Positions 8,627-21,862 of a stretch of DNA of 21,864 nt are shown in pieces. Origin of the DNA: a virus. The notes beneath the pieces were generated by a model that saw only the letters and a list, made by a program, of their open reading frames with translations, did no database searches and was not told the DNA's origin. The position numbers and the translations under genes were made by a program. Where the stretch lies: the IMG/VR virus record IMGVR_UViG_3300000117_000312, positions 1 through 21,864 of that record. One strand, given 5' to 3'. Numbering within the stretch: the first letter of the stretch is position 1; the number at the start of each line of letters is the position of its first letter.

Positions 8627-8711
8627 AGACTGGTTTAATGGTCTTGATAAGAAAGTTAAAATTATAATTGCAGTAGGTATTGTGGTTATTATAGGAATCA
8701 TTATTAACTAA
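8604..8711 (+). CDS. Single-pass membrane microprotein, 35 residues
   Basis: ATG 8604 follows AAGGAAA at 8593-8599. The product has a short charged head (MEKINLIKDWFNGLDKKVK) and one strongly hydrophobic helix of 15 or so residues (IIIAVGIVVIIGIII), ending right after it. Small proteins of this design (an LDKK-type head with one helix) are common beside holins in marine phages, as I recall. The stop overlaps the holin start (TAATG), so the two are translationally coupled. Likely location is the inner membrane, as a lysis accessory or holin modulator; that is inference. Confidence 0.72.
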   Translation: MEKINLIKDWFNGLDKKVKIIIAVGIVVIIGIIIN

Positions 8712-9151
8712 TGGGCATTCCATTCGAAATGATTACCATGCTTGGCTCCACTGTTCTCGGTGGAGTCATGAGCATATGGTCACAGAAAATCAAAGCTAAA
8801 GAATCAGAACAAAAACTTCTTATAGAAAGAAATGCTGTTCAACAAGAAGGTTTTAAATCGGCGAGAGAGTATGAGAACACAGGGTTTCAATGGACAAGAC
8901 GTATTATTGCTTTGACTGCAATCTTTTCTATTGTTGTATTACCTAAACTTATTCCTATATTTGCACCAGAAGTACAAATAATAGTAGGATATCTTGAGTT
9001 TAAACCAGGGTTTTTATTCTTTACAGAAGGTAAAGAGATAATGAAATGGGTACCAATGGCGGCACCAGGTATTGTAATAACACCACTTGATACTAATTTA
9101 GTGGCGGCAATTATTGGTCTGTACTTTGGTGGATCATTAGTAAAAAAATAG
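8711..9151 (+). CDS. Holin, GTA-type three-transmembrane family
   Basis: 146 residues. Three hydrophobic segments: about 6-23 (MITMLGSTVLGGVMSIW), 65-84 (IIALTAIFSIVVLPKLIPIF) and 129-144. A charged helix (KIKAKESEQKLLIERN) separates the first two, and TGFQWTRRI leads into the second. This order and the RWTRR-type entry fit the holin family first described for gene-transfer agents (GTA_holin_3TM). A holin permeabilises the inner membrane at the end of infection and lets the murein hydrolase out. No separate endolysin gene is visible here; the only lysozyme domain is in the giant - strand virion protein, so the lysis endolysin may lie outside the window. The start overlaps the previous stop (TAATG). 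Confidence 0.75.
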   Translation: MGIPFEMITMLGSTVLGGVMSIWSQKIKAKESEQKLLIERNAVQQEGFKSAREYENTGFQWTRRIIALTAIFSIVVLPKLIPIFAPEVQIIVGYLEFKPGFLFFTEGKEIMKWVPMAAPGIVITPLDTNLVAAIIGLYFGGSLVKK

Positions 9152-9178
9152 TTTTTAACAACCAACCAGGAGACTAAC

Positions 9179-9370
9179 ATGGAAGAAAAAATAACAGAAG
9201 AACAAATAGTTATGCAGGATTTACTTAATCAGCTTGCTGATAAAGACAGATCCATAGTAAACTATAGAGTTATTATTACACAGTTGAGAGCGCAACTAGC
9301 TGCACTACAAGCAGAAGATAAAGCGGTTGAAACTGTAGGAGATAAAAAGAAAAAAGAATCTAAAGATTAA
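9179..9370 (+). CDS. Small coiled-coil protein after the holin
   Basis: 63 residues, with AGGAG 7 bases before the ATG. The middle (residues about 8-48) is one continuous predicted helix with heptad-like Leu/Ile spacing (DLLNQLADKD, VIITQLRAQLAAL), then a Lys/Glu/Asp-rich tail (DKKKKESKD). There is no membrane segment or lipobox, so a classical spanin is not supported. Being last in the lysis run, it could be a soluble partner of the holin or an unrelated small phage protein. Its stop codon overlaps the stop of the convergent giant gene. Confidence 0.75.
   Translation: MEEKITEEQIVMQDLLNQLADKDRSIVNYRVIITQLRAQLAALQAEDKAVETVGDKKKKESKD
9343..9368 (-). terminator. Possible terminator of the - strand operon
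   Basis: Read on the - strand just past the giant gene: a weak stem AATC/GATT with a 4-base loop, followed by a long U-rich tract (CTTTTTTCTTTTT). It lies inside the 3' end of the + strand coiled-coil gene. The stem has a single G-C pair, so only the U tract argues for it. Confidence 0.25.
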
Positions 9371-12300
9371 TTCATTGTGACACCGAACTGCTCTGTCAGT
9401 TCTTGTTTATCTTTGAATGTCTTTTTATTAGACTTAAGCGCTCTAAGATTGAAGTTAGCCTGTAGGATTCCTTCATTTCTTAGACGGCTTATATCTGGTA
9501 CATAAGTATAGTTAGAGTCTACGTCATTATTAAATTTTTGTATCTCTCTCATAATTTCAAATATTTTTAACTGAGCCGCATCGCCCAACGCTTTATTGTT
9601 TGTTAGGTTGTAGCCGATATACATATCTCTAAACGCTGTTTTAATTTGTGCGTTAAATGATTTTGTTTTTCCTTGATATTTGGAATCAATTTGTTTCTCA
9701 TAGTATAAAATATTTCTAGCCTTAGAAATTTTAGTAGGAGTAAATCCTATACCTTGCATTAATAAATCAAATCCATTTAAATCAGCAGTAATTAATGTGC
9801 CCCTTCTAGTGTCTACGTATCCTTGTTGTGGATATTTGTAAGCCGCACGATATGCGTTTTTAACAAATGTAGGAGCTGCTGCCATATATAAATCCATATC
9901 AGTAGCCGCATTAAGCAATCCTTGTCTGTTAATTATATCAAATATTTCTCTACCACTTTGGAAGAATACAGCACCTGGTGCTCCTAAGAATTCTTCAGCT
10001 CTTGCTCCAGTTGGCATACCAAATGCTGATAAAATAGCACGAGCTTGTCCAGAGCCTGGTACTTCTCCTAAAGATAATCTTCTTTGTACGTTTACATTAC
10101 CAAAGGCTTCAATACTTCCATTCATAATAGCTTCAGTCATCTTCGGTCCAGTTAAATCTACTAATGCTTCTCGCATTACTGTACGTAAGTCTTCATCTAC
10201 ACCACCCATTTTTCTAGTCATTCTGTATAAGAAATCTAAGTCATCTGCTCCTGGCAATCCCATTAAACCACCAGTTAAAAATAATAATAACATAATACGT
10301 GCAAACATTTTTCTACCCATAGCTGTAGACTGTGCATTGCCTTGTCCTACTAATAATCTTCTAAGTAAACCAAACATTTGACTGATGTAAGTTTGGAATA
10401 AGAAGAATATAGAACCAGCACCTCGCATAATCATTGGTCTGTTTATTTTAGAATAATCGCCAAAGGTATCATCAATTAATATACGTGCAAAGTCTTGAGC
10501 ATTAGCTATCCCACCTCTTTGTTTTTTCATTTCATTCCAAATAAAATTAGAACCAGAATACCAAGTGTCTGCATTCTGCATAGTTTTAGGGTCTTGTGCT
10601 AATCTATAAGCCGCAACATATGCAGTCAAACGTGATATAGTCTCATAAGTATTAAACGTACCACCCATTACACCTTGTTCAAGTTGTTTTATTCTACCTC
10701 TAATCCTCATATTTGTTTTGTCAGTAGGAGTTAAAGTAAATCCTGGAGCCTGTCCAGATTCATACAAAGCCTGCCCCTGTTTAATAATACCGTTAGCAAT
10801 ATCTTCTAAGACAGCATCTACTAATGCTTCATCTTTAAATATTTCAAGTAACCTAGATCTATCTAAATTTAAAAAGACATCACCAAATTGATTATCTGTA
10901 AATGATATTAGTCTATTAACTTCAACAAACGCACGTGATAATTGTGTTGCTGATTTTGCACTGTTAGCAAACTGAGCCAGCATAGGACCGGTGAACTGCA
11001 CCATACTCATGGTCTGTAGAATACCAGAAGATAAATTGCCCCCTAAGAACCACCAGAAACCTAAACGTCTAGGTAAAGTAAACTCGTGAGAATGCATGTT
11101 GTCAACACCATACCCTTTCATTTTCTCAACAGCTTCTCTTAAGTTAGGCATTTTGTTTATGTCAGTATATTTTATAGCATCACTAAAACTATTGTTAACA
11201 TCTTTTAAATATCTATTACGTGCTCCATACTCAGAGGCTATCATACCAAATTGTGATATACTTCTTAAAATATCACCATCAAATCCAGGTACACCACCTA
11301 TCATTTTTCTGCCTCTTACAAACTTATCAAAGCCTACTATGTTTTGTTTACCTATTATTGTATCTAATTCACTTCTAACTTCATCATATTTTTTAGCATT
11401 TTTATCAGACAGATATTGTGCCATTGAGTCTATCATAGATAAATCTTTAGGCATTCTGCTTCTATAATCTTCACTAATTTCTTCAACTTCTGATACTGTG
11501 TATCCTTGTGATGCTGGATACTCTGCAAGTAATCTAGATCTAACTTCATTAAACTTACGAGAAGTAGTCATGCCTGTTGCTTTTTCTTCTCTCAATGGTA
11601 TAGATATGTGCTCATACCTAACAACTTCTCCTGTCTCATCATCTTTAACTGTAATAGCGTGACTACCATATCTTTGTAGTGGTATATAATCAAATTGCTT
11701 TAGTTCTTCAAAGTTTCTTAACTCTTGTAATAACGCAGGTAAATTAGTAGCATCTGTACCTATCAATCCATTAATAACTTCTGAATCTTCTGACAGTGTT
11801 TCTACCATATTACTCAAATCATTAGGGTTGTTCATTGAAGCAGACATAGCTCTGTCTCTTACTAATTGAGGAGCTCTAGCTAATCCATTAATAATTGATA
11901 CAAGTTGTCCGTACTGTAAATTTTCTATAACATCACCATCAAAAGTATTAGGATCAATACCTGCTTCAGTTAAAGCTTCTGGATTCATTCTAGATAAAAT
12001 TTCTACTGCTTGTTTAAGTTGAGGTACAAACGTACTAGCAATGGTACCTTTCTTAACTTCATCTAGTATGCCTATGATAGCCATTTGAGAATCTTCATAT
12101 ACATCTGCTAGTGCTCCGTCTAATACAATAACTTCGCCTTGTAAAATTGTTATAGGATTATCTCCGCCGGTAGTTATATTTTTAGGTGATACAAAAACTA
12201 TTCGCCCTTCTGCATCTTTTCTGTAACGAGCCTGTGCCCCTGCTTGTTGTGATATGATATGAGCTTTAGCTAGTATTTCTTTAGCACCTTCCATTCGATT

Positions 12301-15300
12301 AATAACATCAAAGTAGTTACGCATTTGTGCCGCAAACTGTGTTTGCAATGCTCTACCTTTTTGTTCTAAGCCTTGTACCGCTCTAAACAATCTAGCAATT
12401 ACTGGAAACTTAGCAGCTAAACCTCTAGCGTGCATCATAAACTTAGATACTTTACCAATATCTTTTAATGATACATCAGTATCTGGTGTTGTTCCAGCTA
12501 ATACTTTCTCTTCAGCTTTACCACCATCATCCATTCCTTTGTTAGCTTCTTTAGTTAACGGTCTGTTTTCTTTAGAATCTGGTTGACTTATCTTATCATC
12601 AGATGGATCCGCTTCATATGAACCCTCAGATGATGCACTATAATTAATATCAGACATATCCAGGTTAGGATTATTTTCTACAAGCAATACTTGATCTGCA
12701 TCAAACACTATGTAAGAATCTAAGCTTTCAATTGCCCCTCCATCTCCGTCGTAGTCTGTACTAACTTCGTATTGATTACGGTAAACAATACCATCATAAC
12801 CTTTAGCTTTGATTGCGTCTTGTAATATTTCCTGTCTCTTTCTTGATTCATTCACTCTTCTTGAACCAACAAACGAATCACCTACTGCTTGCATTTTTCT
12901 ACGTATTACTCCACCTTCCGTTGGAGTAAAAATAATATCAGTTAACATTGCTGGGGCCATAATTCTACTTACGTCCATATCTAACCCATATTGTTCAGTA
13001 GGGTTATTAGCTGGTGCAGTTAATTCTTCTAATGCATATTGTGCATCCCATTGAGCTCCCATATCCGCCATACGTACAGGATTACGTATATGTAATACTG
13101 CATTTATTAAAGAAGCTGGGTCTTCAACAACTAATGGTGTCAATGCAGCTAATAAATCTTTAAGTTGTTTTTCTGCAACATTTGCTGCTGTAGTATCTCC
13201 TGCTTCTCGAGCCATTCTTGCATCATCTTCTAACTTCTCTATTTCTAACTCAAGCATAGATCTACTCGCCATCATTCTGCCTCTAATAGTGGCTTGATCT
13301 CTTGTGCCAAAATGTATACCCATAGAGTCCGAGCCAGCTTTAAATCCTTGAGCTATTATTTTTCTATATGCTCTAGCGTTTGTGCCGTGTGTGACAATAA
13401 GGGGGCTTCCAGCAATCCTTATGTCTGTTTCGGTAGGCATTTGCCTGTTTAGTCTTTGTAGTCTAATTTTAAATAAATCAGGAGCTCTCATTAATTCAAA
13501 TAATCTAGCAACACTTTCTCCAGCATACGATCCCATGTTTGCTCTCAACAGTGACGCGCTAGTTATTTCACTAGTAGCTTCTTGATTATTCTCTAAATAT
13601 GCAGCAACCGTATTTAATTCTTGATCGGTTAAAGAATTTAATTGTTGTAGATAAAAGTTAGCTTGTTCTAAATTAACTACACCCGCCTCAGTTGTTAAGC
13701 TTTCAAACAAATTAGATAAAGCCGTTACAACTTTATTAGTTGTAGGATCTTGCCTTACTGCATAAAATTTAGGCAGTACTTTTATTACAAAAGATCTATA
13801 TAATTGTTTGTTAGTAATTACAGATCCAGTTTTTTTACCACCAACTAAGACTACACTACGTCCTCTTTGATTAAAGAAGTTTTCAGCTTGCTCAATAGAT
13901 ATCTTACCAATCTTAGCAAGATTAATCATTTCAGTTCTGCTTATGTCTACTTTGTTAATAATATCACGACGAGCTTGCATTACTCCTTTGTCGATGTTAT
14001 TAAATATTTGTGCTGTGCTTCTTAGTTGGTTGTTGGAAAGTGCATTACCTAATGCAATAATGTAATTTCTAATTCTGTTAAAGATCGATGCAATCATTCC
14101 TTTAGGGCTGTATAACGAGCCGTTAGATGTTGTTGCCATGTACTCAGCAAACGCATCTGATATTGATTCTTCTAGTAATGCTTCTTCATTTAAATTGAAA
14201 CCTTCATAACGTTTTCTAATATTGTATCGTTTCATATACGCATCACGCGCCGCACTTTTTAAAGTAGCTTGTTCTTCTGGTGTTAAAAGATTTTTAAATA
14301 TGTAATGCATAGACTCATGATGTAATGTAAACATACGAGAGTCTCCTGGATTTAACTTACTGCCATTAACATTTTGTGTAGCATTCATAGCCACTTCTAC
14401 TAGACCAAGACCGCCCAAGAATCTGCCGTTTACCTGTGCCCCTTTCTTGTTTGTAATACTATTGTAAATACGCAAGTCTAAATTATTAACGCCAAGTCTA
14501 TCTAATTCAGCACGTAGATCTTCTAAGATCATTGGCATTTTATCTATAGCATCTTGAGATAATGCTGGACGATCTAATGAATCAGGGTGATTAGCTAAAC
14601 TCCAATACTCTTCAATAACTTTTTCTCGCTCTACTTTTTCATAGCCAAGTAATTCTTTACTTAACTTATTAAATGCAGGTATAGATATTTTACCTTTTTG
14701 TTTATCCCAGTTTATAACAGGTTCTATATCAAAACTCTCTAATAGATTATTTAGTTCAACTCTTTTAGAATCAATAGTTTTAATTGCATTTAATCTTTTC
14801 TGCAAATCTCTTGAATATTGTTTGTACAACACTCTTTGATTTTCTGTCAAAGTTTTATATGCTGCTCTAGTAAATCCGTTAGGTAATATTTCTTTTATAC
14901 TATTTTCTAATTGTCTAGCGTCAAATTCTAATTGTTGTTTAGCTTTAGAAGTAAATAAATATACTAAAGTATTATTAAATGTAAATACGTGTTGATTAGT
15001 TGGTTTGTAATTTTTAATTAAATTTCTAAGAGTTAATATTTGAACTTCATCTTTATCTTTACGTGCTTGTTTTAAAAGTTGCCTATAGTATTGTATCATG
15101 TTAACTCTAAATCCAGAGTTGTTCATGTGTGTAGTTATTTCTCTTATCTTAAGTACTCTTGTTAATGGGTCAGATATTTCTTTGGCTACTGCTTCTTTCC
15201 TAGATTCAACAAAATTAATCTCGTTTTGTATACGAGCAGTTTCTGCTTCTATGTTTGGAGAGTTTGGATCTAAAGTTTCTAATTCACTTTTTAATTGTTC

Positions 15301-18120
15301 TATTACTTCATCAGACTTAGCTAGTTGCCAGGCATTTAGTTTCTTTGCTTGTGTCAATCTTTCTAACTCAATCGCGCTATCTGGATCTAAACCTGCCTGT
15401 GTTTCGTCAAAGCTTCTAGGAATTAAAGGGGGCACTTGAGTTCTTGATACTACTCTATTACTTTCTACAATCTGTGGAGTGTGTGGTATTTGATTAGATA
15501 TAATTTCTCTAATCTCTTGCAAGCCTGTAGTTACTTTAGCCTTATCTTTTAATTTAGTATTAGCTAATTTTCTATTTATAAACTCTATACCACGTGGCCC
15601 TTTATAGTAGCCCAGTTTTTGTAATTCAGTTTTTTCTTGATCTGTTAATTGATTTTCACTAGCCAATGTAGTGTTAAAGAAACCTACAATACCTTGCTTT
15701 CTTTCTTTTTGATATTGTTTCTCAGCAACTTTATTAAAAGCATCACCTTCTAACCCTTGATATTGTTTATACTTAGCAGGTAATGGAGAAACTTCTCCTT
15801 CTTCTTTTTGTATTCGTTCTTGATTTTGCAATTCAAATTGATATTCTTCAAACTCTTCTGCCAACCAATCATCTAAAGGTGGCAGTCCTACTATATCTTC
15901 TGCACTTTGCTCACTGTTAATAATTCCTCTAGCTTTTAAATCTTTTATTGCTTGATTAACTTCTTTATTCTTTGGTATTACTGTGTCTTCTTCTGGTAAA
16001 TATTGTTGATCTTCTAAGTTAGCAATATCTTTTTCATTCAATTGACTCTTAGTAAGTTTACTAGATTCGTTAAGTGGCACAAGAACAGGAGCACCTCCAC
16101 CTCTTGGAGTTAATATATAAACTTCATCACCTTTAGTTGTGACAGTTGTACCTAATAAAACATATTCTTTAGGTGTAGCATTTTCTGTTTTGTCCTCTGT
16201 GTCACCAACTTGTCCTGTATAAATAAAAGTATCTCCAACTTCACCACCAGTTGCATTAATAGCTTCCGTATTGTCTGTATCTACTTTGTCAGACAAAGCC
16301 GCAGTTGCATCTATGTTTTTGTTTCCAGCTTTTCTTATATATTGAATTGGACCAGAAGTTACTCCACCGATAACTCCACCAGCAACCGCACCAGCTGCAG
16401 CAGCTTCTCCTAATTGTTTCCAAAAATCTTTTGATGAATATAATTCTGCAAGACTAGCGCCTTCGTTTATCTCCGCAACAGTAGAAGTAATAGATTCTTG
16501 TATTGCCTCTGTTATACCTTCACCTACAAACTGTTTACCAAATCCTTTACCTACTTCTTTAATAATACTATTTTTAATTTTCTTTTCAGATAATTCTTTT
16601 ATAGTTGTTTTTTTAACTATGTCTTCAACAACATCAGCTCCATATTTTTTAGCAAACAAACGATTAAGCATAAACGATGTACCTAAATATCTTTCAGCCG
16701 CCGCGTATGGAATACCAGCTGCTAATGATAATGCCGCATTAGAATCACCTGATCTATCTAATTGTGCCCCTGTTGCTTCTCCAACACCCATAGAGTATGC
16801 TGCCATCATACCAGAAATACTTGCACCTGTTGCTGCTAAACTAGCACCGCCTGTAAATGGAGCGGCTGCAATTCCTGCACCTGCACCTACGGCACTAGCC
16901 ATTATGATTGGAATCATAGTAGTAGCACCTGCTCCTGTGTTAAACGCTGCCCAGTCTAGGAATGAACTTAACTTAGCTTCGCTCTCTAGTGCATCTTCGA
17001 TAGAAGTAATACGTGATTCAACTCCGCTAGGATTTTCGCCTTCTTTATATATGTGTACTGCAGCATCTTGGTTGTATTGTTCACGTAGTTTTTCAAACTT
17101 AGCCATGTTTTCTTCACTGCCAAATACATCAGCAACTGTATACAGTGCTCCTGTTCCGATAGCTTTAAGATTATCATAACCAGATTTAATACCAGCAGTT
17201 AATGCCCAATCATCTAAATCACTATTGTCTTTATAGTAAGAAGGTTGTAACCCATACTTATATAGATAACCTTGATCATACATTTGAGCTTCAACTTCTT
17301 CACTCTTCATATAATCTTGTACTTGCTCTGGAGTGAACTCTTCAGGCACAGCAATACGCGGAGCTTTTGGATCATCAAAGGCTACATATTTAACTTTTCT
17401 TTTAGGTGTCTTGTCTCTTGGTATATATAGATCTGCACCAGGTAAGCTTGCACTTTGTTGAGGTACTTGATAGGATCCAACTCCCGCATCTGCAAGAATT
17501 TTACTTACAGCTGCTCTAGCTTCTGTATCTTCATTAGATACTACTGTTCCGTCTTGGGTGGGTATAATAAGTTCTGGGCCATCTTCACCTACAAGATATG
17601 GTTTGCCTGCTTCAACCGGCCCCCCTTCTTGACGTGACTGAATACCCATAGACAATAAAGCATCTCGTACAGCTTCCATACGTGGACGTATGCCTGGTAT
17701 ACCTAACGCTTCTGCATCTTCATATTGTTTGTTTTTTAAAAATTCTTCAGCGGCTTTATCGTATTCTCCTGCGTTTATAAGATCTACTGTATTTGGACTT
17801 TGTCTTATTGATCCTCTGTAATATTCACTAAAGATAGCACTTTGTACATCTTTTGGAAATTTTTTAAAGTTTGGAATCAACTTATCAATTTCTTTAACAC
17901 GAACTTTTACGTCTTTGTCTAATAAATCTTCAGCTCTTTTTTTGGTAATTTTTGTTTGTTTATGTTCTAAAACATCTGGACCATAATGCCCGTAGCCTAT
18001 AGTGTAGTGTTTTTCACCAGGTAATTGATAAGGAATTAAAGATAATCCTTCAGCTTCTTTAATAATTTTTTTAAAGCCTCCTATATCATAGGTGCTTTTT
18101 TTCTTTTTGGCATCAGCCAT
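9367..18120 (-). CDS. Giant polyvalent virion protein: lysozyme, HExxH peptidase-like, ADP-ribosyltransferase-like
   Basis: 2,917 residues in one frame; AAGGA lies 8 bases before the ATG. Order: (1) residues 10-155, a T4-type/GH24 lysozyme with E24 in EAEG, T40 in YTIGYGH and an RPRMEA end; the catalytic Asp of T4 lysozyme is not evident (YQLPGEKHYT). (2) About 166-195, GGPVEAGKPYLVGEDGPE, a segment common in phage tail and tape-measure proteins. (3) About 385-590, Gly/Ala zipper segments likely to insert in membrane. (4) HESMH at 1268-1272 with ESISDAFAEY at 1318-1327, a zinc metallopeptidase pattern. (5) About 1575-1815, an ADP-ribosyltransferase-like fold (THGT with H1578, IHFGT, GYDGIVYRNQYE with E1785, DSYIVF). 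(6) Long helical parts. (7) Hydrophobic segments near 2350-2385, 2570-2590 and 2609-2632. Likely an internal virion protein ejected into the host to cross the wall and act inside. Domains are seen as motifs; activity and packaging are inferred. Confidence 0.88.
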   Translation of the reverse strand: MADAKKKKSTYDIGGFKKIIKEAEGLSLIPYQLPGEKHYTIGYGHYGPDVLEHKQTKITKKRAEDLLDKDVKVRVKEIDKLIPNFKKFPKDVQSAIFSEYYRGSIRQSPNTVDLINAGEYDKAAEEFLKNKQYEDAEALGIPGIRPRMEAVRDALLSMGIQSRQEGGPVEAGKPYLVGEDGPELIIPTQDGTVVSNEDTEARAAVSKILADAGVGSYQVPQQSASLPGADLYIPRDKTPKRKVKYVAFDDPKAPRIAVPEEFTPEQVQDYMKSEEVEAQMYDQGYLYKYGLQPSYYKDNSDLDDWALTAGIKSGYDNLKAIGTGALYTVADVFGSEENMAKFEKLREQYNQDAAVHIYKEGENPSGVESRITSIEDALESEAKLSSFLDWAAFNTGAGATTMIPIIMASAVGAGAGIAAAPFTGGASLAATGASISGMMAAYSMGVGEATGAQLDRSGDSNAALSLAAGIPYAAAERYLGTSFMLNRLFAKKYGADVVEDIVKKTTIKELSEKKIKNSIIKEVGKGFGKQFVGEGITEAIQESITSTVAEINEGASLAELYSSKDFWKQLGEAAAAGAVAGGVIGGVTSGPIQYIRKAGNKNIDATAALSDKVDTDNTEAINATGGEVGDTFIYTGQVGDTEDKTENATPKEYVLLGTTVTTKGDEVYILTPRGGGAPVLVPLNESSKLTKSQLNEKDIANLEDQQYLPEEDTVIPKNKEVNQAIKDLKARGIINSEQSAEDIVGLPPLDDWLAEEFEEYQFELQNQERIQKEEGEVSPLPAKYKQYQGLEGDAFNKVAEKQYQKERKQGIVGFFNTTLASENQLTDQEKTELQKLGYYKGPRGIEFINRKLANTKLKDKAKVTTGLQEIREIISNQIPHTPQIVESNRVVSRTQVPPLIPRSFDETQAGLDPDSAIELERLTQAKKLNAWQLAKSDEVIEQLKSELETLDPNSPNIEAETARIQNEINFVESRKEAVAKEISDPLTRVLKIREITTHMNNSGFRVNMIQYYRQLLKQARKDKDEVQILTLRNLIKNYKPTNQHVFTFNNTLVYLFTSKAKQQLEFDARQLENSIKEILPNGFTRAAYKTLTENQRVLYKQYSRDLQKRLNAIKTIDSKRVELNNLLESFDIEPVINWDKQKGKISIPAFNKLSKELLGYEKVEREKVIEEYWSLANHPDSLDRPALSQDAIDKMPMILEDLRAELDRLGVNNLDLRIYNSITNKKGAQVNGRFLGGLGLVEVAMNATQNVNGSKLNPGDSRMFTLHHESMHYIFKNLLTPEEQATLKSAARDAYMKRYNIRKRYEGFNLNEEALLEESISDAFAEYMATTSNGSLYSPKGMIASIFNRIRNYIIALGNALSNNQLRSTAQIFNNIDKGVMQARRDIINKVDISRTEMINLAKIGKISIEQAENFFNQRGRSVVLVGGKKTGSVITNKQLYRSFVIKVLPKFYAVRQDPTTNKVVTALSNLFESLTTEAGVVNLEQANFYLQQLNSLTDQELNTVAAYLENNQEATSEITSASLLRANMGSYAGESVARLFELMRAPDLFKIRLQRLNRQMPTETDIRIAGSPLIVTHGTNARAYRKIIAQGFKAGSDSMGIHFGTRDQATIRGRMMASRSMLELEIEKLEDDARMAREAGDTTAANVAEKQLKDLLAALTPLVVEDPASLINAVLHIRNPVRMADMGAQWDAQYALEELTAPANNPTEQYGLDMDVSRIMAPAMLTDIIFTPTEGGVIRRKMQAVGDSFVGSRRVNESRKRQEILQDAIKAKGYDGIVYRNQYEVSTDYDGDGGAIESLDSYIVFDADQVLLVENNPNLDMSDINYSASSEGSYEADPSDDKISQPDSKENRPLTKEANKGMDDGGKAEEKVLAGTTPDTDVSLKDIGKVSKFMMHARGLAAKFPVIARLFRAVQGLEQKGRALQTQFAAQMRNYFDVINRMEGAKEILAKAHIISQQAGAQARYRKDAEGRIVFVSPKNITTGGDNPITILQGEVIVLDGALADVYEDSQMAIIGILDEVKKGTIASTFVPQLKQAVEILSRMNPEALTEAGIDPNTFDGDVIENLQYGQLVSIINGLARAPQLVRDRAMSASMNNPNDLSNMVETLSEDSEVINGLIGTDATNLPALLQELRNFEELKQFDYIPLQRYGSHAITVKDDETGEVVRYEHISIPLREEKATGMTTSRKFNEVRSRLLAEYPASQGYTVSEVEEISEDYRSRMPKDLSMIDSMAQYLSDKNAKKYDEVRSELDTIIGKQNIVGFDKFVRGRKMIGGVPGFDGDILRSISQFGMIASEYGARNRYLKDVNNSFSDAIKYTDINKMPNLREAVEKMKGYGVDNMHSHEFTLPRRLGFWWFLGGNLSSGILQTMSMVQFTGPMLAQFANSAKSATQLSRAFVEVNRLISFTDNQFGDVFLNLDRSRLLEIFKDEALVDAVLEDIANGIIKQGQALYESGQAPGFTLTPTDKTNMRIRGRIKQLEQGVMGGTFNTYETISRLTAYVAAYRLAQDPKTMQNADTWYSGSNFIWNEMKKQRGGIANAQDFARILIDDTFGDYSKINRPMIMRGAGSIFFLFQTYISQMFGLLRRLLVGQGNAQSTAMGRKMFARIMLLLFLTGGLMGLPGADDLDFLYRMTRKMGGVDEDLRTVMREALVDLTGPKMTEAIMNGSIEAFGNVNVQRRLSLGEVPGSGQARAILSAFGMPTGARAEEFLGAPGAVFFQSGREIFDIINRQGLLNAATDMDLYMAAAPTFVKNAYRAAYKYPQQGYVDTRRGTLITADLNGFDLLMQGIGFTPTKISKARNILYYEKQIDSKYQGKTKSFNAQIKTAFRDMYIGYNLTNNKALGDAAQLKIFEIMREIQKFNNDVDSNYTYVPDISRLRNEGILQANFNLRALKSNKKTFKDKQELTEQFGVTMN
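9385..9415 (+). terminator. Possible terminator of the + strand operon
   Basis: GAACTG (9385-9390) and CAGTTC (9397-9402) form a perfect 6-bp stem with a 6-base loop, followed by TTGTTTATCTTT. It lies 15 bases after the last + strand stop and inside the last codons of the opposing giant gene. The modest stem makes this moderate evidence. Confidence 0.4.
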
Positions 18121-18179: not shown

Positions 18180-19286
18180 TTATTTGGGCTTGCCAAATTG
18201 ATCTATGTCTGCAGGCGGTAAGTTATACGCATCTGATGGCACTGTGGTGCCAATTGATTTTCTTCGCAGTTCGTCAATTCTTGCTGTTAATGATTTATAC
18301 TCGTCAGAATCTTCATCCATAGTTAATCGTTGATTTTGTAAATCAGTTATTTGTCCCTCTATACCAGCTTGTCCTTCAGTAATTGCTACTGATAATATAG
18401 CATCAACTTCAGCCATATGTGCTGCAGTGTTTGGTTCAAATCCTCTAATAGTTGCAAGTTCCATAGCTTGTTGAGTTGCTTTACTGTAATCAGATTTAGC
18501 TGCTTCCGCAATATTTTTCATAGCTTCACTATCTATTTTCTTTATTTCGTATGCAGTTTTTTGACGATCTAGTAATGTATCAATTGCTGCTGCTGCTTTA
18601 GTTTCACCTTTTTCCCTAAGAGCAATAGCTTCATCTTCTAAAGTTTCAATTTCATCCATGCCCTCTCGAAGCCCTCCAGATTTACCAAAGATTCTACTAA
18701 ATGTATCAGTGCCTTCTTTGCCACCAACCAATCGACGTTCAGATAAATTGTCACCAATGTTTCTAAGCAGTGCAAAAGCTTTGTCTCTGTTAGATATTTC
18801 TTCACCTTCTCTAACTCGTTCGTCAAATATTCTACCAAGAACAGTATCTCTGGGCACAAACTTTTCAGCTTCTTTAGCAGCTTTTTGATTTTCTTCTATC
18901 ATTTTTTTTCTTTTATCTTCAGCTGCTTTAGCCCCTTTTACTTGACTTTTCATTCTATAAGTTTCTCGTGCAGTTAAAGCTTTTTCATTTTTAGCATCTT
19001 TAAGTTTTTTAGCTTGCATAATTTTAATTAATTGAGAAGGAGTAAGTTCCGGATCACCTAAACGACTTTGCATCATTCTACTTTTGCTAACTTCTTGTCT
19101 TCTTTTTTCAGCAGCTAATTTTTTTTGTTCATCAATAAACTCTGATGGCATATATGAAAAATCATTTAAGTCTTCTATGCTTTCTACTTTTGGAAGTAAA
19201 TCTCCAAAAGTTGGTCCTTCATACGTATCGCTATAGCCTGGCAATATATATGATGGATATGGTTGTGGTTTTTTATCGTCTGCCAT
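18180..19286 (-). CDS. Helical, coiled-coil probable internal virion protein
   Basis: 368 residues; AGGAG precedes the ATG. The N terminus is Pro/Tyr-rich (PQPYPSYILPGYSDTYEGP). From about residue 50 to 290 it is almost wholly charged helix, very rich in Lys, Glu, Ala and Arg, with long coiled-coil stretches and no predicted membrane segment. Near the C terminus is another helical pair (ITDLQNQRLTMDEDSDEYKS). I recognise no family. Position directly before the giant lysozyme-bearing gene and after another virion-like gene suggests a partner in the internal core or ejection machinery, as short helical proteins accompany the large core protein in podoviruses. That role is inference from order and composition. 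A gap of 10 bases separates it from the gene before it. Confidence 0.8.
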   Translation of the reverse strand: MADDKKPQPYPSYILPGYSDTYEGPTFGDLLPKVESIEDLNDFSYMPSEFIDEQKKLAAEKRRQEVSKSRMMQSRLGDPELTPSQLIKIMQAKKLKDAKNEKALTARETYRMKSQVKGAKAAEDKRKKMIEENQKAAKEAEKFVPRDTVLGRIFDERVREGEEISNRDKAFALLRNIGDNLSERRLVGGKEGTDTFSRIFGKSGGLREGMDEIETLEDEAIALREKGETKAAAAIDTLLDRQKTAYEIKKIDSEAMKNIAEAAKSDYSKATQQAMELATIRGFEPNTAAHMAEVDAILSVAITEGQAGIEGQITDLQNQRLTMDEDSDEYKSLTARIDELRRKSIGTTVPSDAYNLPPADIDQFGKPK

Positions 19287-19296
19287 AATCTACTCC

Positions 19297-20643
19297 TTAA
19301 ATTCCTTTAAACATATTGTATATGTTTGCAACATCGGTTGCACCACTTATAAATTTATCAAAGTTACTTGGATTGTCATATATTTCTGGTGCTGAACCAT
19401 AATTATCAAAAGGTGTGCCCTGTATAATTCCGCTTAAGAAATTAAGTTGTTCCTTAGGATATGCTTGTTCTCTCAAGAAGTCAGCGTAAGCTGTATCCAT
19501 AGCTCTTTGATCTATACCTTGTTGCAATCCAGCTACACCTAATTGAGAAGCAACATCTGCCGCTCCAAGTTGTTGTCGTTTAGCCGCTGCAGAAATTTGA
19601 TCCATGCCAAGTCCTCTTTGCGAGTCACCTAAACCTCTTTGAGAATCTCCTAGTAATCTAGTTGAATCCATTAACTGTCTTTGTTGTCCACCCAGTTGTC
19701 CTTGTAGTGCCCCTAACTGTCTCATCTCGCCAGTTGCTGCTCGTGCTAAGTTACCAGCTGCAGTTGTTTGTCCTGCTGCTTGTAGTCTGGCTAAAGTTGC
19801 TTGGTTAGCTAAACTGCCTGCTTGAGTCTGTGCTTGTGCTCCTTGAATTTGACGCTTACGTCCTTCTTGAGCTGCAGATAATGCAGACTCATAAGCACTT
19901 GACAATCCTTTAGAATATAAATCACCAATACCTTCTTGTTGTGAACGGCTTTGCATGCCAGATAGTATAGCAGCACGACTGCCGCCAAATCCACCAGACA
20001 TAGCAGCTTTTGCTCCTAAGTTAGTTTGTTGTCTAGCTCCTTCTTCAGTAAATTTTCTAGCCGCTGCATCAATTACATTAGATGTATATGGATTCATAAA
20101 GCCTTGAATCTCAGCACCAGTAATACCTCGTGCCCCTTGACCTGCTAAACCATAAGCTCCGCCAGCCATATTCATTGTACCTTGGGTAGCATCATAACCA
20201 CCTTGAGCCATTCCTCTTGCTCTTTGCGATGCATCAAATGATGAGCCTAAAGTTCCAAGTGCCCCTGCTGCAGTTCCCATACCCGCACCTATCATACCTT
20301 CGGCTGTGCCACCACGTTGTCTTGCGTCGCCATACATACCACCAGCTGTTCCGTACATGCCACCTGCTTGTCCTAATGTACCAATACCTACGTCAGCTCC
20401 AGCAACTCCCTGTCCTGCATAACCTTGTTGTTGAGCTATGGCACGTCTTTGTGCTTCGCTTAAACCTGCTACTCTTGGGCCGCCGTATGCTACGTAAGGC
20501 TCTGAAGCTACGCCTTTGGCTGCTTCAATTGCTCTAGCCGATGCATCTCTTAAGTATTCAGGCATTGGAGACTCAGCGGTTTGTTCTTGACCTAAAGTTT
20601 GATCACCGCCTGTGCCTACTAAATAATCCCATATTGTTGCCAT
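19297..20643 (-). CDS. Gly/Ala/Gln-rich repeat protein, probable internal virion or DNA-ejection protein
   Basis: 448 residues; AAGGAA precedes the ATG. The N terminus (MPEYLRDASARAI, EPYVAYGGPRVAGLSEAQ) matches a pattern I recall at the start of proteins annotated as internal or DNA-transfer proteins in marine podoviruses, with EPY..Y.G.R.A.LS..Q. Residues about 90-180 are Gly-rich degenerate repeats (GGMYG, GGAYGLAGQGARG). Around 330-350 is a tandem LGDSQRG repeat. The middle (FMNPYTSNVIDAAARKF, GGFGGSRAAILSG) is typical of the same group. The C terminus (YPKEQLNFLSGIIQGTPF) is also conserved in my memory. Composition suggests a flexible, mainly helical protein that can be extruded through the tail channel. 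Exact function not proven. Confidence 0.82.
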   Translation of the reverse strand: MATIWDYLVGTGGDQTLGQEQTAESPMPEYLRDASARAIEAAKGVASEPYVAYGGPRVAGLSEAQRRAIAQQQGYAGQGVAGADVGIGTLGQAGGMYGTAGGMYGDARQRGGTAEGMIGAGMGTAAGALGTLGSSFDASQRARGMAQGGYDATQGTMNMAGGAYGLAGQGARGITGAEIQGFMNPYTSNVIDAAARKFTEEGARQQTNLGAKAAMSGGFGGSRAAILSGMQSRSQQEGIGDLYSKGLSSAYESALSAAQEGRKRQIQGAQAQTQAGSLANQATLARLQAAGQTTAAGNLARAATGEMRQLGALQGQLGGQQRQLMDSTRLLGDSQRGLGDSQRGLGMDQISAAAKRQQLGAADVASQLGVAGLQQGIDQRAMDTAYADFLREQAYPKEQLNFLSGIIQGTPFDNYGSAPEIYDNPSNFDKFISGATDVANIYNMFKGI

Positions 20644-20653
20644 AATTTATTCC

Positions 20654-21862
20654 TTAAACTGTTTCTTTTTCTCTACCATAGAATGGTGTTAATTGATTGT
20701 ATCCGCCGCCTGTTACTGCGTATTTTCTTACTTCGTCTAGACTTGCTGGACCAACAAAATATCTGTTAGCAAAAGATCTTTCAAATCTGTCTCTTTCACG
20801 ATTGTTTCTTTCTTCTTCTTCTGCCCTTCTTCGCGCCTCTTCTTCAGCCGCTCTTCTTGCAGCTTCCTGCTCAGCTCTTCGGTCATCTCCTCCACCTCCG
20901 CCTTCACCTCGACCTTGAATTCCAAAGCCTCGATAGGTAGATGGTAAAGATTTAGATAAAGCATCTTTTTCTTTACCAGTTAATTTATCTAGTGCTTTTT
21001 GCATCGTGTCTCTTAAACTTTTAGGAGTTTTGTCAGTAAATGACATTAATGCTTTGCCTATAGAATATATACCTTTCAACCCCATAGGAGCGAAAGCTGC
21101 CAAAGCTGCAGCACCTAAAACTGGTGCCGCTTTTGCTAGATCTGCTTTAAAGTCTGGATTAGTAAATTGATATTTTAATGATTCTACAAAGCCCATACTT
21201 GTAGTTGGATTTTTGCCATAGAACTCATTAAGTTGTGCTAGCTCATTTAATTCTGTGGTAGTGATAGTATTGGCTTTAGCTTTAGCAGCTAGTTCACCAA
21301 GCCTGTCTTGCATCTTGCCTTCGTAAGTACCGTATGCGCTTGGATCTATTGAAGAAAAATCAGGATCTCCTAATTCATTTACTGCTATACTACTAAGCGC
21401 TGGCCTCTGATCAAATGTAAAGGCCGGGTTATCATCGTAGAAGTCTTCTGAAAGCATTTGATTGTAATATGCTTCTCTGGTTTTTTGATCGTCGTAATCC
21501 TGCATTGCCTCATTAAAAGCTTTTTCAGAATATACATTAGTTGTAACACCTGTTTCGGGGTTAGTATTAGTAACAGGGTTACCATATTTATCTACCACAG
21601 CTGCTGCTTTTTTAGCAAGTCCTTCCATAGTCTCTCGATCTTTCATTGGTGTATTTGCCGCCTCTTCAACACTTTCTCTGTATCCGTCATCATCTGGCCC
21701 TGGACCTGGTCCTGGGTCTGGACTATCAGTACTTACATCTCCTTTGTTGCCAGAGTTTTCACCAGTTTGTGATCCTCCATTATCATCTGGAGTACCACTG
21801 TCATCTGCTCCCATGCCGCCCATGCCACCCGCACCAGTCTCTGCCCCTGGATCACTAGTAGC
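20654..21862 (-). CDS. Partial virion-like protein, acidic Gly/Pro head and Arg/Glu helix, 5' end off window
   Basis: The frame is still open at the right edge (13 codons beyond the Met at 21823), so the start lies outside; that inner ATG lacks a clear ribosome binding site. About 402 residues are visible. The N-terminal 70 are low complexity, acidic and Gly/Pro-rich (DSPDPGPGPGPDDDG). The middle is helical, with a hydrophobic segment (APVLGAAALAAFAPMGLKG) that could touch a membrane. Near the C terminus a long run of alternating Arg, Glu and Ala (AARRAAEEEARRRAEEEE) looks like a single stable alpha helix. The last residues (SFANRYFVGPASLDEVRKYA) look globular. No family recognised. Gene order places it among virion proteins; the low-complexity head and amphipathic parts fit an internal or tail-associated component. 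Confidence 0.75.
   Translation of the reverse strand, partial: ATSDPGAETGAGGMGGMGADDSGTPDDNGGSQTGENSGNKGDVSTDSPDPGPGPGPDDDGYRESVEEAANTPMKDRETMEGLAKKAAAVVDKYGNPVTNTNPETGVTTNVYSEKAFNEAMQDYDDQKTREAYYNQMLSEDFYDDNPAFTFDQRPALSSIAVNELGDPDFSSIDPSAYGTYEGKMQDRLGELAAKAKANTITTTELNELAQLNEFYGKNPTTSMGFVESLKYQFTNPDFKADLAKAAPVLGAAALAAFAPMGLKGIYSIGKALMSFTDKTPKSLRDTMQKALDKLTGKEKDALSKSLPSTYRGFGIQGRGEGGGGGDDRRAEQEAARRAAEEEARRRAEEEERNNRERDRFERSFANRYFVGPASLDEVRKYAVTGGGYNQLTPFYGREKETV

Follow-up and report, generated by a model that had tools for sequence, protein, structure and literature searches.

A predicted polyvalent virion protein of an uncultured phage, with two exchange sites on a conserved chassis

We analysed a 21,864-nucleotide stretch of viral DNA (the window) in which one gene encodes a protein of 2,917 residues. 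This giant is probably an internal virion protein that is ejected into the host and belongs to the polyvalent class, already known; its source is an uncultured and probably short-tailed marine phage. The reading draws on the domains of the protein, the context of its gene, the homology of its C-terminal module to a virion protein, the exclusion of cysteine and the exchange of domains in a defined slot. In an alignment with about 50 related phage proteins, the giant has a fixed chassis and two exchange sites, one at the N-terminus and one in the slot between a zincin-like peptidase and the C-terminal module. Judged by the same alignment, the lysozyme and the ADP-ribosyltransferase (ART) found at these sites are replaceable cargo: close relatives lack them or have other domains instead. 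The class itself and every recognised domain type of the giant are already known, the latter from the catalogue of polyvalent proteins (Iyer et al., 2017; PMC5512222). What is new is the chassis with two exchange sites and a C-terminal module that connects several podophage groups and has no Pfam model.

Gene and genome setting

The 2,917-residue gene is a single, intact minus-strand ORF that starts with ATG and carries AAGGA approximately 10 nt upstream of the start codon. Its homologues in two other assemblies are likewise single ORFs, L012 aligning to residues 158–2914 at 57% identity and L013 to residues 4–2914 at 46% identity. The gene is thus not a fusion or other artefact of assembly, and the preliminary description was right to treat it as a single gene. 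A scan of the collection with the full-length protein gave no relatives because the automatic peptide patterns landed in its variable parts; relatives were collected by scanning with the neighbouring exonuclease.

The source contig is a 21.9-kb virus record. Related contigs of 57–60 kb encode a DNA polymerase, a DUF3987-type primase, a ribonucleotide reductase, an exonuclease, a terminase and head proteins, and their portal (802–850 aa) is of P22-type length. In related genomes that hold the terminase, portal and head genes, the gene of the giant comes last in the virion block, behind a gene that resembles those for ejection proteins, and so lies among virion and morphogenesis genes as expected of a polyvalent protein. 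Three further genes of this block precede it in the window (Table 1), and the related-genome counterpart of one of them, the 448-aa protein, matches PHROG 4287 ('DNA ejection protein') with an E-value of 3.8e-15. The portal, tail and ejection-protein genes point to a short-tailed phage (podovirus). The phage collection held no isolate with a close match (the best exonuclease match, at 46%, was to an uncultured phage), and no host was found through bacterial genome contigs.

A short ORF on the plus strand (about 9178–9370, ~63 codons, ATGGAAGAAAAAATA...) lies convergent to the 2,917-residue gene, the last codons of which it overlaps; it adjoins a 146-aa membrane-protein gene (8711–9151).

Table 1. 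Positions of the giant, its segments and the neighbouring ejection-block genes in the window
Feature	Residues	Window position	Strand	Basis or remark
Polyvalent internal virion protein (predicted), 2,917 aa, no cysteine		9367..18120	-	Whole ORF and homologues
GH24 phage lysozyme	21-133	17722..18060	-	PF00959, E 2.1e-12
Linker GGPVEAGKPYLVGEDGPELIIP, exchange junction	160-200	17521..17643	-	Kept in relatives with different N-terminal enzymes
Chassis region 1, with hydrophobic Gly/Ala segment 395-424	240-590	16351..17403	-	
Poorly conserved middle	600-1150	14671..16323	-	Alignment and Pfam
Zincin-like metallopeptidase	1180-1390	13951..14583	-	Conservation of HExxH...EE
HESMH	1268-1272	14305-14319	-	
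EE	1317-1318	14167-14172	-	
ART domain (ART-PolyVal), filling the variable cargo slot that separates zincin and C-module	1555-1835	12616..13458	-	PF18760 in 14/14 members, best E 4.6e-10
Conserved helical C-terminal module, with hydrophobic helix 2604-2625	1830-2917	9370..12633	-	Homologous to C-termini of DarB-like/PLxRFG giants
Upstream neighbour, 368 aa, cysteine-free, probable ejection-block protein		18180..19286	-	
Cysteine-free protein, 448 aa		19297..20643	-	Counterpart in related 60-kb genome matches PHROG 4287
Cysteine-free protein, cut by window end		20654..21862	-	Counterparts of 476-551 aa start the block in related genomes

Chassis, enzymes and exchange sites

Three blocks are constant among the ~50 aligned homologues: residues 240–590, the zincin and residues 1830–2917. 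In the poorly conserved middle of the protein, Pfam recognised no domain.

The N-terminal segment is a GH24 lysozyme, an assignment that the profile match makes certain (47.9 bits to PF00959, cut-off 22.3) and that bears out the wall-degrading domain expected from the first inspection of the sequence. The catalytic residues E24 and T40 are present, and the equivalent of D20 of T4 lysozyme is missing, as in phi29 gp15. This enzyme type is shared with L013. Other relatives begin differently: G001 and L012 have an SLT-type N-terminus (17.3 bits, below the cut-off), L003, L009 and L016 are SLT-type by sequence similarity, L106 has a pesticin-type lysozyme (E 2e-50), and L008 has another form. L013 and L009 carry different wall enzymes on C-terminal modules only ~0.07 changes per column apart. 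A linker motif, GGPVxAGxPYLVGExGPE(I/L)(I/V)(I/V)P (at ~166–190), is common to all the N-terminal types compared, and residues 157–216 match PHROG 30701 and the tape-measure PHROG 5062. In these sequences the linker is the boundary at which one wall enzyme gives way to another.

The zincin-like segment carries HESMH followed by E1317 and E1318 (the downstream acidic ligand proposed in the preliminary description). Neither the two histidines nor the three glutamates vary among 22 relatives, whose identities go down to ~23–30%. Of 67 distinct related giants, 66 have HExxH, and the other is an ORF fragment that starts after the motif. In an AlphaFold2 model of residues 1150–1835 (29 rows, mean pLDDT 75), helices 112–128 and 163–179 carry HESMH and EE, respectively, the arrangement of an HExxH helix with a glutamate in the next helix; zincin-like peptidases of polyvalent proteins are expected to have a three-stranded sheet as well, and ahead of HExxH the model is almost wholly helical. 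No significant Pfam model covers this region and a PDB fold search yielded no zincin fold, so that the assignment as a zincin-like peptidase, which is supported, rests on the motif and its conservation.

The ART domain is well supported, by sequence profiles and by the model. Its motifs THGT (1577), GIHFG (1601), GYDGIVY (1774) and DSYIVF (1801) are conserved, which upholds the polyvalent-type ART recognised earlier from three of them, and all 14 aligned homologues match PF18760. The copy in the window scores 23.2 bits by itself, under the cut-off of 31.2, and homologues in the same slot score 35.6, 37.6, 39.8 and 31.5 bits; L057, L106, L049 and L043 are above the cut-off. Among the 14 best ART rows, H1578, H1603, D1776, N1782 and E1785 are invariant or nearly so. 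Of the H-Y-D active site of the family, the His (H1578) lies in strand 1 of the model and the Asp (D1776) in strand 5, as assigned by motif; both are conserved. The strand-2 position holds the invariant H1603, against the Tyr described for ART-PolyVal (Iyer et al., 2017; PMC5512222). His is also present here in relatives scoring above the cut-off, for example L043, L049 and L057, and the position therefore seems to be variable in the family.

The preliminary description had called for structure prediction domain by domain; here it covered residues 1150–1835 and the C-terminal module. In BFVD, the 1150–1835 model matched phage ART-PolyVal and polyvalent-protein models with probabilities of 0.9–1.0. 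The PDB gave nothing significant (top match PARP2, E 0.36) and no support for a zincin fold.

The slot that holds the ART varies in content. Among the aligned tree rows it is empty (13–47 aa) in 11 and contains an ART in 17. L019 has instead a methyltransferase-like domain (19972–20553) and L043 a methyltransferase-like domain together with an ART (16033–17442), the match to Methyltransf_23 falling just under the cut-off. In L048 (18989–19903), L042 and L060 (19800–20720), the ART is replaced by a 305-aa domain with an EGRHR motif and no Pfam match. On a tree of the C-terminal module (FastTree, with some long branches), slot content changes at least five times, and ART at least three times.

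The C-terminal module spans 1,090 residues and is mostly helical in its predicted model. No Pfam model covers it, a Foldseek comparison of its model with the PDB gave no match, and no solved structure of a relative was found by sequence. It is homologous to the C-termini of four larger podophage proteins, from Klebsiella phage LASTA (4,433 aa), Pseudomonas phage H66 (3,787 aa), Pseudoalteromonas phage Y7 (4,675 aa) and Agrobacterium phage Atu_ph08 (4,877 aa), with E-values of 1e-25 to 1e-51 in hmmsearch and a probability of 100 (E 4.6e-52) in hhalign. According to its database annotation, the H66 protein (H66_0060) has been confirmed as a virion component by mass spectrometry.

Two hydrophobic segments, 395–424 and 2604–2625, are clear and are kept in the family average; those at 570–592, about 2363 and about 2568 are weak. 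Of the proposed membrane-active C-terminal helices, one is supported (2604–2625), and the C-terminus is chiefly the conserved module common to podophage giants.

Predicted delivery and alternative readings

The course that we infer runs from packaging and ejection through refolding and proteolytic release to the ADP-ribosylation of a target in the host. Delivery with the DNA, which the preliminary description had considered, has indirect support from the exclusion of cysteine and from the homologue annotated as verified in virions. The giant would be made late, with the three other cysteine-free ejection proteins, and packed in the head. It would then be threaded unfolded through the tail, ahead of the DNA, and refolded in the envelope, where the N-terminal lysozyme would open the peptidoglycan and the hydrophobic segments and conserved C-terminal module would anchor or route the chain. 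The zincin would act as a protease in processing and may release the cargo, and the ART, once in the cytoplasm, would ADP-ribosylate a macromolecule of the host ahead of phage gene expression.

An unlikely alternative is that the giant is a DNA-conduit protein like T7 gp16, with a lysozyme and a channel-forming C-terminal module, in which the ART and zincin have decayed or are folding modules without catalytic activity. The chassis is indeed conserved without an ART in many relatives, the ART copy in L063/L065 looks degraded, and T7 gp16 has the same layout of an N-terminal wall enzyme and a membrane/cytoplasmic C-terminal part (PMC8954989). Against decay stand the conserved HExxH...EE signature and the (nearly) invariant His, His, Asp, Asn and Glu of the best ART rows, and the methyltransferase-like domain found in the same slot elsewhere suggests that the slot holds catalytic payloads.

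We consider it improbable that the giant is instead a structural protein of the tail tip or injection needle, its lysozyme staying with the particle and its enzymes acting in the envelope rather than the cytoplasm. The linker motif does match tape-measure proteins, and lysozymes are common tail components, but the genomes have head and portal genes together with a gene for an ejection protein, and their gene lists contain no tail gene of tape-measure size. Moreover, the periplasm is not known to offer a substrate pool to an NAD-using ART. Least credible of all is an antirestriction function, taken from the database name ('DarB-like antirestriction') of proteins with a homologous C-terminal module: the DarB-type methylase-helicase pair is absent, Pfam finding neither domain in the giant, and the shared part is only the C-terminal module, which also occurs in giants with other N-terminal parts. 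We rejected the label because the name derives from the C-terminal part and was transferred with it.

As a predicted ejected polyvalent protein, the giant resembles the phage members of the class described by Iyer et al., 2017 (PMC5512222), multidomain giants encoded with virion genes, in that a single ORF joins several disparate activities, with a lysozyme, the signature of a zincin and an ART-PolyVal domain; it differs from them in the added C-terminal module and the two exchange sites. The DarB-like/PLxRFG podophage giants (H66_0060, LASTA, Y7, Atu_ph08) share the C-terminal module, a near-total lack of Cys and the position at the end of the virion block, but are 3,787–4,877 aa long, have other N-terminal parts (LPD39 and others) and are only ~22% identical. 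A 4,515-aa DarB-like protein of a Bcep22-like podovirus, JC1 gp69, which we liken to them by name only, was found in purified virions (PMC9144972). T7 gp16 and P22 gp16/gp20/gp7 are alike in gene-block position, in the near-absence of cysteine and (T7) in the N-terminal wall enzyme; they show no sequence homology to the giant, and no ART or zincin has been described in them. T4 Alt is a virion-borne ART that is ejected with the DNA and modifies host proteins (PMC5512222), as the giant is predicted to be, but it belongs to a different ART clade (R-S-E active site) and is a stand-alone protein.

The virion RNA polymerase (vRNAP) of N4-like phages (gp50) is also giant, ejected and cysteine-free, with an HExxH domain followed by a helical C-terminal part of ~1,100 aa (PMC12633501). 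The giant described here lacks its T7-like RNA polymerase domain (no Pfam or PHROGs match). The published layout (C1 HExxH, C2 helical; PMC12633501) prompted a search for homology in the zincin or C-terminal module, which hmmsearch and hhalign did not support; for the C-terminal parts none was detectable (hhalign probability 2–3%). The likeness is an analogy of layout.

More tentatively, the C-terminal module (residues 1830–2917) might be a general packaging-and-ejection carrier common to several podophage groups, with two independently exchanged ports, one for an N-terminal wall opener and one for a cytoplasmic payload (ART, methyltransferase or others). If so, the effector slot would be a catalogue of the proteins that phages deliver before transcription, and strict exclusion of Cys from the complete set of ejected proteins would allow the ejected proteins of phages of Gram-negative bacteria to be read from sequence alone. 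The family also offers a natural experiment on early phage weapons, with near-identical carriers that bear different wall enzymes and either have or lack the ART.

Cysteine exclusion in the ejection block

Cysteine is absent from the giant and from 49 homologues longer than 400 aa (93,945 aa). The products of the three upstream genes (18180–21862, minus strand) also lack it, giving four consecutive cysteine-free products in the window (4,135 aa in total) that match a four-gene block in related genomes. In two of these, G001 and G002, the block has 0 Cys against 0.53–0.67% in the other virion-strand genes (Fisher P 3e-8 and 4e-10, respectively) and 1.1–1.4% in other-strand genes. We rejected codon or base composition as the cause, the replication genes of these phages containing 1.1–1.4% Cys. 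Distant ART giants contain 0.049% Cys against 0.44% in the other ORFs of the same loci.

Ejection proteins of characterised phages behave similarly: there are no Cys in P22 gp7/gp20/gp16 (1,309 aa), N4 gp50-52 (4,294 aa) or SU10 gp20-24 (2,956 aa) and two in T7 gp6.7/7.3/14/15/16 (2,448 aa), compared with 65 in 9,171 aa of other virion proteins of T7, P22 and N4. In T7, P22 and the examined stretches of N4 and SU10, eight genes for 450 aa or more have zero Cys, and these coincide precisely with the ejection proteins in that size range. The rule is not absolute, since epsilon15 gp15-17, taken as ejection proteins, hold four Cys in 2,394 aa, and some head proteins that are not ejected (scaffold, N4 capsid) also lack Cys.

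The lack of cysteine in N4-like vRNAP was reported in 2010 and explained by the oxidising periplasm (PMC3715699; also PMC5795418). A wider statement of the exclusion was not found in the literature searched, and its extension to polyvalent giants and whole ejection blocks is new. Extended in this way, to T7, P22, SU10 and polyvalent giants, the cysteine test offers an easy way to screen uncultured phages for ejected proteins. An N4-like vRNAP of Vibrio phage pVa5 (L187:4393–14427) has a related N-terminal lysozyme domain and no cysteine.
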